Origin: Henriciella sp.
Lineage (GTDB): Bacteria; Pseudomonadota; Alphaproteobacteria; Caulobacterales; Hyphomonadaceae
Direction of reading: 5' to 3'
NCBI GenBank assembly: GCA_013214545.1
Contig: JABSQB010000007.1
Location: 1-64,000 of the forward strand
DNA length: 64,000 bases
Part shown: positions 27,030 to 31,706 of the stretch, piece after piece
Numbering within the stretch: position 1 is the stretch's first letter
Layout of the letters: the number at the start of each line of letters is the position of its first letter
Position numbers and translations under genes: made by a program
Notes under the pieces: generated by a model
Databases searched by the model: none
Seen by the model: the letters and a program-made list of their open reading frames with translations, nothing else
What the model was told of the DNA's origin: nothing

Positions 27030-28220
27030 ATGTCCGCCTCAACTGAGTTTACGATCCGTCGCGCGGTCAACGCCGATATCGACAGGATCGTCGAAATTGC
27101 GGAAGCAAATCGGTATGATGGCAGCGGAACACAAGACAGTTTCCTGGTGTCAGACTTCACAGCGGACCATTACAGCGAGACACTGTTTTCCGATGGATAT
27201 GATCAAAGCACCCCGGATTCAGTCTTGCTTGAGAAACGTCCGTTGGCATATGTCGCCGAGCACGAAGACCAGGTCGTCGGATTCGTATATATCTATTCTT
27301 CCAAGTACAGCCGAAAAACGTTCCCGGAACAGCCTGATTTACCCAAGAATGAAAAGCCCGGAGTAACCTACTATCCCCGGCACAAAACCGAAGTGCGCAT
27401 AGATCGGTTGCTGGCGGAAAAGACAGACTTTCTGGTCATAAAACAGATCGGGGTTCATCCAGATTGGAAGAAAAATCGAATCGCGAGCTCGCTTTATCAA
27501 CACGTGTTTAGCCAGTTTTTTGCGCCCCATATCTTCGCAGCCATTGTCGAACGTCCGATCAACAAAGTATCGCAAAAGTTCCACGCTTCACTGGGATTCA
27601 CTCCGGTGTCCCGCAGCATTTCTGGTGAACTCGGTGCGCCTGATGTCAAACTCAATCAGATTTGGTATCGCCCCGGCCTTCCCATCGTTCAAAATGTTCA
27701 TGTCCCAGATAACCATGTTTTTGAGGGGAATAAATCTGTGTCTGGTGAGACCCTTACAGAGTCGATTCACCACTCACGGACGCTATATTTACACGAAGAC
27801 TCGCTCAATTGGATCAAGCTGAATGTGACGATTACGATCTTGTTCGCGTTGATGGCGGCACTTTATCTATTGACCCAAAACCAAGAGCGTTTCGCAGGAC
27901 TCGCGGTTTTATTCGTCGTGGGTATAGGTAGTTTTGTCCTGTTCCTGTTTCGGGCAACCTTGAAAAGTGGGATCGATTTCATGCGGTCCCATAAGGACAA
28001 TTTGCGAATTGCCGAATCCCGCATGTTATTTCACGAACCTCTGTTCCAAGGCTCAATCAGGCATGTTCCGAAGCGGGCTTTGACCATAGCAATTATGAAT
28101 CATTTGCCAAAAGTGGCGCTGATCACCTGGACGATCGCATGTGTGCTTGCCCTTTTGGTAGAGTTTGCTCACTGGGCATGCATCGCCTGGAACTGGGTCG
28201 CTCAACTCCAGCTCCCCTAA
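27030..28220 (+). CDS. GNAT-like N-acetyltransferase fused to a C-terminal membrane region
   Basis: FTIRRAVNADIDRIVEIAEAN, GVHPDWKKNRIASSLYQHVF, then three hydrophobic segments. Confidence 0.75.
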   Translation: MSASTEFTIRRAVNADIDRIVEIAEANRYDGSGTQDSFLVSDFTADHYSETLFSDGYDQSTPDSVLLEKRPLAYVAEHEDQVVGFVYIYSSKYSRKTFPEQPDLPKNEKPGVTYYPRHKTEVRIDRLLAEKTDFLVIKQIGVHPDWKKNRIASSLYQHVFSQFFAPHIFAAIVERPINKVSQKFHASLGFTPVSRSISGELGAPDVKLNQIWYRPGLPIVQNVHVPDNHVFEGNKSVSGETLTESIHHSRTLYLHEDSLNWIKLNVTITILFALMAALYLLTQNQERFAGLAVLFVVGIGSFVLFLFRATLKSGIDFMRSHKDNLRIAESRMLFHEPLFQGSIRHVPKRALTIAIMNHLPKVALITWTIACVLALLVEFAHWACIAWNWVAQLQLP

Positions 28221-29110
28221 AGCGCGCCGCGGACGATTTCGCCAATCATTTGCGCTTCGCTTTCACGCGGTGAGCCCTGACGCCAGGCGATGCCGATCCG
28301 GCGTCCAATCAGCGGCGTCTTGAACGGTCGTAACTCCACGTCCGCGCCGGAGGTGACCCCGGCATCGATCGCGAGCTTTGGCAGCAGCGAAACGCCGAGT
28401 CCGCCGGCCACCATATGAACCAGGGTTGGCAGGCTGGTCGCAGTCACATCAGCGCCGCCGCGATTGCTCGGCAAGCGGCAAACCGACAAGGCATGGTCAC
28501 GCAGGCAGTGCCCGTCTTCCAGCAACAGCACATCTTCATCAACGAGATCGGTTGATGTCAGTTCCCGCGCCTGCATCAGGTCGTGGTCCGTCGGCGCAAC
28601 CAGCATGAACTCATCATCGCCGAGTTCCATCGTCACGATGCCAGCCGCATCCCATGGCAAAGCAATCAGAGCCGCATCAAGCTTGCGTGCCCGCAGCGCG
28701 TCGATCAGGCGCTCGGTCTGATCCTCGCGCAAGTAAAGCTTCAGTCCGGGATGGGCTTTGCGCAGGGCCTTCAGGGTGCGGGGCAAGAGAAACGGCGCGA
28801 TGGTCGGGATCGCGCCGAGACGGAAAGAGCCTGACAATGGCGCTCCAGCCTGGCGCGCAGCAGAGACCAGATCGGCGGTGTCGGAGAGAATGATCCTTGC
28901 CCGTTCCACCGCCGCTTCACCGGCCTGGGTCAGCGACGCGCCGCGCGACTCACGCTCGATCAATTGGACCCCGAGCAGGCCTTCAACTTCCTTGATTGCG
29001 GCAGACAAGGTTGGCTGGGTGACATGGCAGGTTTCAGCGGCCCGAGAGAACGAGCCCTGATCGGCGATCGCACACAAAAATTCGAGCTGTCGGAGGGTCG
29101 GAAGATGCAT
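28217..29110 (-). CDS. oxyR: LysR-family H2O2-inducible regulator OxyR
   Basis: LysR HTH plus LLLEDGHCLRDHALSVC (C-x8-C redox pair). Confidence 0.93.
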   Translation of the reverse strand: MHLPTLRQLEFLCAIADQGSFSRAAETCHVTQPTLSAAIKEVEGLLGVQLIERESRGASLTQAGEAAVERARIILSDTADLVSAARQAGAPLSGSFRLGAIPTIAPFLLPRTLKALRKAHPGLKLYLREDQTERLIDALRARKLDAALIALPWDAAGIVTMELGDDEFMLVAPTDHDLMQARELTSTDLVDEDVLLLEDGHCLRDHALSVCRLPSNRGGADVTATSLPTLVHMVAGGLGVSLLPKLAIDAGVTSGADVELRPFKTPLIGRRIGIAWRQGSPRESEAQMIGEIVRGAL

Positions 29111-29123
29111 AGTCAAAACCTAT
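29109..29123. promoter_or_regulatory. OxyR-like half site ATAG-N7-CTAT overlapping oxyR start codon
   Basis: ATAGTCAAAACCTAT read directly. Confidence 0.5.
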
Positions 29124-29219
29124 GCCTCCATACGTAAATATCAATTGTGTTTCTGCCGAGCGCTTCCCTATATCGATCACAACGAGTTGATCAGTCCGGA
29201 CAATTTTCGCCTTGAACGC

Positions 29220-29400
29220 TGCGAAGACTGCCCCATCTGAACATCAGAGCTGAAGAAGAGCAGCTCAAAAAATACGCACGGTGGCTTCCGATCCCAAATC
29301 CCTCAAGCCTCCGTTTCTGCGTGGTCCTGCCGGGCCCCTTTCCTCCCCCCTAAAAGGTTATCCGGCAGGACCGTTCGCGGCCTTTCTCAAACCAGGATAA
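29220..29400 (+). ncRNA. Candidate sRNA/structured leader divergent from oxyR
   Basis: Perfect 11-bp stem GGTCCTGCCGG (29323-29333)/CCGGCAGGACC (29362-29372), inner CCTTT/AAAGG stem, C-rich loop CCTCCCCCCTA. Confidence 0.4.
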
Positions 29401-29459
29401 TTTGTCTGTGACCGAGTTTTGACTTGCGCAGGCGGCAATCTCTGTCACCCTAGGAAATT

Positions 29460-30050
29460 ATGGACCTCACTGCTCCAGGACTTGCAAACGACGTGATCCG
29501 CCTCGAAGCGCTGACAGAGCGCTTTCGCGAAGATCTGCGCAATAGTGGAGCGATCGAATATATGTGGCTGTCGCTGCCGGCGATCCAGCGCGGCGCCGGG
29601 TTCGATTCCTATTTCGACCACGTTCTGAAACAAGGCGATGCCGGCGAAGTGCTGGGGTTTGCCTTACTCGACCCCAATGACCAGTCGCGCTTCGTCGGCG
29701 TGACGGCTCTGATGTATCCCAACAAAATGCACCGCCGTGTCCGCATCGGTTATACTTGGCTGGAGCCGCATCTGCGCGGTCGCGGCGTCTATGCCGCGAT
29801 CCAGAAACTGCTTATCCAGCGCGCCTTGGACTGGGGTGCCAAACGGATCGAGTGGTATGTCGAAGAGCGCAATTCACGCGCCATCCGCGCCATCGAAGCG
29901 ATTGGTGCCATCAAGGAAGGCGTCTTGCGCGAATATGAGAAGTTCGCAGACGGCGAATGGGTCGACATTGCCATCCTCTCCATGCTGCGCGACGAAGCCA
30001 AGGCGGCTGTCCAGCGCCTCGATCAGGCCATGACTGCGTCACAGACTTGA
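29460..30050 (+). CDS. GNAT family N-acetyltransferase (RimJ/RimL-like)
   Basis: RIGYTWLEPHLRGRGVYAAIQKLLIQRALDWGAKRIEWYVEERNSRAIRAIEAIGA. Confidence 0.9.
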   Translation: MDLTAPGLANDVIRLEALTERFREDLRNSGAIEYMWLSLPAIQRGAGFDSYFDHVLKQGDAGEVLGFALLDPNDQSRFVGVTALMYPNKMHRRVRIGYTWLEPHLRGRGVYAAIQKLLIQRALDWGAKRIEWYVEERNSRAIRAIEAIGAIKEGVLREYEKFADGEWVDIAILSMLRDEAKAAVQRLDQAMTASQT

Positions 30051-30248: not shown

Positions 30249-31706
30249 ATGTTTGACGCGCTAACAGACCGCCTAGGCGGGGTATTCGACGGATTGCTCG
30301 GGCGCGGCGCGCTGACCGAGAAAGACGTCACGGCTGCGCTGCGCGAAATTCGAGTCGCCCTGCTGGAAGCCGACGTCGCCCTGCCTGTGGTCAAGGACTT
30401 CATCGGATCGATCAAAGACAAAGCAGTTGGCGAAGACGTCATCCGATCGGTCAAACCCGGCCAGCAAGTCGTCAAGATCGTGCATGATGGTCTGGTCGAG
30501 CTGCTTGGCGGTGAGGATGCCGAGACCGGTCTGCGCGTCGACAATCCACCCGCCGTTGTGATGATGGCCGGCCTGCAAGGCTCCGGTAAGACCACCACGA
30601 CGGGTAAGCTCGCCAAGCGCCTCGCTGAACGCGACAAGAAAAAAGTCCTCCTCGCCTCGCTCGACACGCGGCGTCCGGCGGCGATGGAACAGCTCGCGAT
30701 CCTGGCTGACCAGTGCAATGACAGTGTCTCAGCGCTGCCCATCATCAAGGATCAGAGCCCGGCTGAGATTGCCCGCCGCGCGCTGCAAGCTGCGAAGCTC
30801 GGCGGTTATGATGTGGTCTTCCTCGACACGGCTGGCCGGACCTCAATCGATGAACAGATGATGGCCGAGGCGAGCGAGATCGCCAAGATTGCCAATCCGA
30901 ACGAAACCCTGCTGGTCGCCGACTCCCTCACCGGTCAGGACGCGGTCGAAACCGCCAAACGCTTCCATGAACGCCTGCCGCTGACCGGTCTGATCCTGAC
31001 CCGGATGGATGGTGACGGCCGCGGCGGCGCCGCGCTTTCGATGCGCGCTGTCACAGGCCTGCCGATCAAATTCCTCGGTACAGGCGAAAAGCTGGATGGC
31101 CTTGATGCCTTCGACGCCAAGCGTCTTGCGGGCCGCATCCTCGGTCAGGGCGACATTGTCTCGCTGGTGGAAAAAGCCGGCGACCAGATGGACGCTGACA
31201 AAGCGGAGAAGATGGCCAAGAAAATGGCCAAGGGTCAGTTCGACCTGGACGATCTCGCGCAACAGCTTCAACAGATGCAGAAAATGGGCGGCCTGGGCGG
31301 TATTATGGGCCTCCTGCCCGGTGCCAAGAAAGCCAAACAGGCGCTCGACGCCTCTGGCATGGATGACAAAGTGATCGCCCGTCAGGCGGCAATCATCTCG
31401 TCAATGACCAAGAAAGAGCGCGCCAAGCCAGCCCTCCTCAACGCCTCCCGCCGCAAGCGCATCGCCGCAGGCGCCGGTGTCACAGTGCAGGACGTCAACC
31501 GCGTTCTGAAAATGCATAAGCAGATGGCCGGCATGATGAAGAAAATGTCCAAAGGCGGCATGCGCGGCATGATGAACATGATGGGCCAGGCCGGCGTCTC
31601 TCCGGCTGACCTCGCCAAAATGGGCGGCGGCGCTGCGATGCCAGGCGGCATGCCCGGCGCAGGCGGCGTACCGAACATTCCCGGGCTGACTGGGGGTAAG
31701 AAATGA
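30249..31706 (+). CDS. ffh: Signal recognition particle protein Ffh
   Basis: MMAGLQGSGKTTTTGKLA, DTAGRTSID, TRMDGDGRGGAALS, M-rich C-terminus. Confidence 0.98.
   Translation: MFDALTDRLGGVFDGLLGRGALTEKDVTAALREIRVALLEADVALPVVKDFIGSIKDKAVGEDVIRSVKPGQQVVKIVHDGLVELLGGEDAETGLRVDNPPAVVMMAGLQGSGKTTTTGKLAKRLAERDKKKVLLASLDTRRPAAMEQLAILADQCNDSVSALPIIKDQSPAEIARRALQAAKLGGYDVVFLDTAGRTSIDEQMMAEASEIAKIANPNETLLVADSLTGQDAVETAKRFHERLPLTGLILTRMDGDGRGGAALSMRAVTGLPIKFLGTGEKLDGLDAFDAKRLAGRILGQGDIVSLVEKAGDQMDADKAEKMAKKMAKGQFDLDDLAQQLQQMQKMGGLGGIMGLLPGAKKAKQALDASGMDDKVIARQAAIISSMTKKERAKPALLNASRRKRIAAGAGVTVQDVNRVLKMHKQMAGMMKKMSKGGMRGMMNMMGQAGVSPADLAKMGGGAAMPGGMPGAGGVPNIPGLTGGKK

Follow-up and report, generated by a model that had tools for sequence, protein, structure and literature searches.

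The gap between the divergently oriented oxyR and GNAT acetyltransferase genes on the analyzed DNA (the window, 64,000 nucleotides) contains a real, conserved and apparently undescribed non-coding element of two hairpins (positions 29279-29380), which very probably is a small RNA (sRNA). Judged from its sequence, the gap would harbor the gene for a trans-acting, stress-induced sRNA on the + strand, driven by RpoH and/or OxyR and silencing mRNAs by pairing; we assign to this reading a probability of roughly 60%.

The intergenic region and its flanking genes

The nearest named records to the genome from which the window derives were those of Henriciella, Hyphomonas and metagenome-assembled genomes of Hyphomonadaceae. 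On the - strand the gap is flanked by the gene of an oxyR-like LysR regulator (28217-29116, starting with TTG at 29116 or ATG at 29110), and on the + strand by the GNAT acetyltransferase gene (29460-30050, ATG at 29460), downstream of which lies ffh (at 30249). Depending on the oxyR start chosen, it measures 343 to 349 bp, in agreement with the 340 bp given in the original prediction. The identification of the divergent gene as oxyR, also part of that prediction, was corroborated: the best PDB matches of the LysR protein were OxyR proteins, and both E. coli-type cysteines were found within HCLRDHALSVC, at a spacing comparable to that in E. coli OxyR. With the NCBIfam OxyR model the protein scored 229 bits, below the cut-off of 329, and by its sequence it looks like OxyR. 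Elsewhere in the window, positions 27030-28220 (+) encode a protein whose N-terminus carries a GNAT domain and whose C-terminal part is hydrophobic; NCBIfam gave no match for it, and Pfam detected the GNAT part only.

A conserved, predicted RNA with two hairpins

The perfect 11-bp inverted repeat reported for the gap was located exactly at 29323-29333/29362-29372, as were its inner stem CCTTT (29337-29341)/AAAGG (29353-29357) and the stretch CCTCCCCCC (29342-29350). On the + strand this 52-nt hairpin had a folding energy of -28.3 kcal/mol (z = -5.4, a value inflated because the segment was pre-selected), and none of 200 shuffled sequences was equally stable. The - strand of the region folds too. 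The 11-bp hairpin turned out to be the second half of a larger element, of which the original prediction saw only this part. Hairpin 1 (29279-29313, +) exposes the loop CCGATCCCAAATCCCTC (29288-29304), a putative seed that holds UCCC twice. Hairpin 2 (29319-29380, +), a possible terminator, comprises the 11-bp stem, an outer GCG/CGC extension and a C-rich loop. The C-rich loop stretches of the element are CCGAUCCCAAAUCCCUC and UUUCCUCCCCCC. A small protein encoded by the element was rejected, since no reading frame common to the relatives was found across it.

A DNA search with the gap yielded matches in nine genomes including its own, and the aligned set was used for all counts of invariant positions. 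For the structure analysis a tenth, diverged copy (G022, locus L028) was added, in which both hairpins are preserved with different letters. The most conserved part of the element is the loop of hairpin 1, CCGAUCCC[A/C]AAUCCCUC, with 16 of 17 bases invariant in the nine genomes. In hairpin 2 of the same set, 14/15 positions of the 5' arm and 10/11 of the 3' arm were invariant, as against 7/28 in the loop. The CCTCCCCCC loop is variable and was found to be shortened and lost in G013; in nine of the ten genomes the loop of hairpin 2 is rich in C. Thus, the anti-Shine-Dalgarno-like loop originally proposed held up insofar as C-rich loops occur in a conserved + strand RNA element; the conserved seed is not this loop, but that of hairpin 1.

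Covariation analysis, suggested along with the original prediction, was performed on the ten sequences. Pairing was kept in 98.9% of the cells, and five base pairs exhibited two-sided changes, more than in the shuffled and slid controls. Four of the 11 pairs of hairpin 2 showed such changes and none was broken, while the stem of hairpin 1 preserved its pairing via wobble pairs and one two-sided change. As four of the five two-sided pairs occur in G022, they represent few independent events. The stem of hairpin 2 nevertheless exceeds chance because this diverged relative keeps the pairing by compensatory changes on both sides. Furthermore, owing to nine G-U cells, 188 of 190 cells can pair on the + strand versus 180 on the - strand, which argues for a + strand RNA. 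It had also been considered at the outset that the hairpin might be a 5' UTR element which relatives do not conserve; the element is conserved in them.

Putative promoters upstream of the hairpins

Upstream of the hairpins the nine genomes share the consensus CTTGAA-N16-CCATYT, which in the window reads CTTGAA-N16-CCATCT (P2, 29211-29238, +), its spacing being constant. All six positions of CTTGAA and five of six in CCATYT were invariant, but none of the 16 spacer positions and none of the following 40 nt. These sharply bounded blocks are the pattern of a promoter, an unconserved leader and then a structured RNA. In Sinorhizobium meliloti, RpoH1 promoters read CTTGAA-N15-16-CCTATAT and RpoH2 promoters CTTGCC-N15-16-CCTATCT (PMC4843759). 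P2 resembles these S. meliloti consensus sequences, and from this sequence match it is a candidate RpoH-type promoter. Judged in this way, the sharpest promoter footprint at the gap is RpoH-like, not OxyR-like. With P2 as its promoter and hairpin 2 at its end, a transcript spanning 29245-29390 (+) is proposed, both ends being approximate.

The strict RpoH pattern matched five times in the 3.57-Mb genome versus zero times for the reversed control. The match at nadA was rejected as it reads as a sigma70 promoter, and the remaining matches considered lay inside coding sequence. The groES gene was discarded as an RpoH reference because it is preceded by a CIRCE-like repeat and has no RpoH-type promoter. 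This repeat (TTAGCACTC...GAGTGCTAA; loci L065-L067) suggests that groESL is apparently controlled by a CIRCE-like element and not by an RpoH-type promoter. The genome encodes two RpoH paralogues (G000:C13:4383-5192 and C73:141133-141933), of which one scores above the curated RpoH cut-off and the other, possibly an RpoHII-type factor, below it.

The gap also contains an OxyR-type operator, CATAGTCAAAACCTATGCCTCCATACGTAAATATCAATT (29108-29146, +), which overlaps the oxyR translation start. It was detected with a matrix built only from eight boxes located upstream of katG in relatives, with no oxyR-gap sequence included, and ranked first in the 64-kb window with 17.4 bits, followed by a score of 3.9. 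Its orientation toward the sRNA is the same as that of the katG boxes toward katG. These boxes represent a conserved 39-bp OxyR-type sequence before katG in eight genomes of the Henriciella group (L126-L133), e.g., TATAGTTAAAACCTTTAGGGGGTAGCGCTATTATTAATT. From the ATAG-N7-CTAT motif type and the katG context we infer that they bind OxyR, and in studies of the group's OxyR regulon the box could be taken as a reference motif. The operator is retained in relatives without the sRNA (G025, G024) and therefore may serve oxyR alone.

Downstream of the operator, CTATAT (P1, 29168-29173, +) was proposed as the -10 box of an OxyR-activated promoter. The sequence CTATRT is present in seven of nine genomes and begins, as counted by eye, 21 to 22 nt past the operator in most genomes bearing the sRNA; at katG a TA-containing hexamer resides at about the same distance from the box. 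Since katG has a second candidate -10 region (CATAGTT) and CTATRT may be part of oxyR's own promoter, overlapping its -35 region, P1 is a proposal only. Next to P1 lies a conserved block, TCGATCACAACGAGTTG (29174-29190), with 10 of 17 positions invariant in the nine genomes. Situated between P1 and P2 and having the core TCACAACGAGTTGAT, it is a possible further regulator site or part of the oxyR promoter.

Taken together, a predicted structured + strand RNA divergent from oxyR and an OxyR-type operator pointing toward it agree with the oxyS/oxyR-like arrangement that had been suggested for this locus. The operator, which was not known at that time, backs the peroxide link and makes peroxide control of the sRNA plausible. 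Control of the RpoH type appears at least as likely.

Distribution of the element

With a covariance model (R1), the element was identified in 10 of 29 genus genomes, always in the oxyR-GNAT gap. Among 105 genomes of the family and 398 of the order no convincing match was obtained beyond those ten, under strict filters that may drop weak matches. Weak matches outside the lineage (E 0.01-0.04) are at chance level over the 105 and 398 genomes, and the one inspected (L064) resides inside coding sequence. Weak matches in the corresponding loci of other relatives were dismissed as noise. In L027, L029 and L031, oxyR lies upstream of GNAT and the element is absent. The GNAT tree requires two presence changes for the element, which may have a single origin. 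By these searches, its occurrence is limited to one Henriciella lineage and, within it, to the oxyR-GNAT gap.

Alternative explanations

It is unlikely that the hairpins constitute a cis-acting 5' leader of GNAT-ffh that serves in attenuation or stability, with transcription from P1 or P2 proceeding into GNAT. Such a leader would fit the position of the element, always directly upstream of GNAT and co-oriented with it, and the absence of a strong terminator after hairpin 2, where no clear T tract is present and read-through is thus possible. However, GNAT seems to own a separate promoter, which argues against a leader. The probable -35 region of this promoter, TTTTGACTTGC (29416-29427, +), is invariant at nine of 12 positions, and the -35-like box TTGACTTGC between the hairpins and GNAT also occurs in G017, which lacks the element; hence, the GNAT transcript most likely begins past the hairpins. 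Moreover, several relatives keep GNAT without the element, and the near-invariant loop of 17 nt is more like a seed for pairing in trans.

A role of the hairpins limited to terminating transcription, or to insulating the transcription of oxyR from that of GNAT, is improbable. Although hairpin 2 has a long GC-rich stem, followed in some genomes by a short pyrimidine-rich tail, no terminator-like match and no strong T tract were found after it in the window. Both oxyR and GNAT start from the gap and neither ends there. In addition, conservation within hairpin 1 is higher in the loop than in the arms, which a terminator would not require. A functional - strand, i.e., a long oxyR 5' leader exposing the Shine-Dalgarno-like loop GGGGGGAGG, is very improbable even though this strand folds too, since the wobble pairs favor the + strand, the promoter footprints read on +, and a -10-like TATAAT/AATAAT at about 29146-29151 lies downstream of the hairpins in the direction of oxyR.

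Proposed function and comparison with known systems

For the stress-induced sRNA that we favor, the following mode of action is conceivable. Stress of the RpoH type would drive a transcript of approximately 145 nt from P2, and oxidized OxyR could drive a longer one from P1. Translation of several mRNAs would be blocked by pairing of their purine-rich ribosome-binding sites with the hairpin-1 loop, to which the C-rich hairpin-2 loop may contribute; hairpin 2 would protect or end the RNA. By analogy with AbcR1/2 and GsrN, such pairing is the most likely mode. Catalase/peroxidase mRNAs, which had been suggested as targets, did not emerge as such: in a simple model, duplex energies with the katG leaders of eight relatives were not beyond those of shuffled leaders. 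A search of eight genomes for complements of the hairpin-1 loop with up to three mismatches revealed, besides the sRNA itself, neither a site with zero or one mismatch nor a clear extended complement among the matches listed. More tentatively, and with doubts prevailing, a single sRNA might integrate peroxide (via OxyR) and protein damage (via RpoH) through tandem promoters, an oxyR-oxyS-like arrangement that would have evolved independently in Alphaproteobacteria and combined with AbcR-like anti-Shine-Dalgarno targeting.

Positions 29100-29480 were also compared with known sRNA families, as the original prediction had advised. Rfam, with its OxyS model, yielded no match at the gathering cut-off or at E<=10; alpha-r15 is presumably one of the models covered. 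A search of the openly accessible literature disclosed nothing on this sRNA family. In enterobacteria the gene of the sRNA OxyS is oriented divergently from oxyR, and an OxyR operator lies between the two. By sequence, the Henriciella element shares this layout, but it differs in its loops, its lineage, the additional RpoH-like promoter and the lacking Rfam match to OxyS. The CcsR or 'cuckoo' RNAs of Rhodobacter and relatives (CCUCCUCCC) have C-rich loops of the anti-Shine-Dalgarno type and are under stress control by RpoH factors. Unlike these, the element gave no Rfam match and is present in a single copy, and no small neighboring gene of the DUF1127 type was seen in the gap.

AbcR1 and AbcR2 (alpha-r15) of Sinorhizobium, Agrobacterium and Brucella are about 115-120 nt long and contain two separate C-rich anti-Shine-Dalgarno motifs, CUCCUCCC in the 5' hairpin loop and UUCCCCUC between the stem-loops, by which numerous transport mRNAs are silenced (PMC8844928). 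Transcription of AbcR2 proceeds from an RpoH1 promoter (CTTGAA), and that of AbcR1 is controlled by LsrB, a LysR regulator that senses the redox state (PMC8844928). The element likewise has two C-rich stretches, and its putative promoter P2 contains the sequence CTTGAA. Here, however, both stretches (CCGAUCCCAAAUCCCUC, UUUCCUCCCCCC) are hairpin loops with other sequences, the neighboring LysR gene is OxyR-like, and AbcR RNAs were described from Rhizobiaceae and Brucellaceae. GsrN of Caulobacter is stress-induced, exposes a C-rich loop and is linked to peroxide survival; it depends on sigmaT, the general stress factor, acts on katG mRNA and has BLAST homologues in Caulobacteraceae only (PMC5869019). 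The exposed C-rich loop is common to both, but the element has an RpoH-like promoter, the aligned gap contains no conserved GGAAC block (SigmaT/EcfG promoter), and pairing with katG is unsupported.

The best reading by analogy is that the element would work like AbcR2 or GsrN, membership of either family being unsupported. If this is true, a bacterial family that has been little studied possesses an sRNA family not described before, which parallels the oxyR-oxyS pair of enterobacteria independently. The near-invariant loop of 17 nt and the presence or absence of the element among close relatives with the same gene order make its gain, its loss and its targets directly amenable to study. Compared with the known systems, the element is new as a family, but ordinary as a kind.
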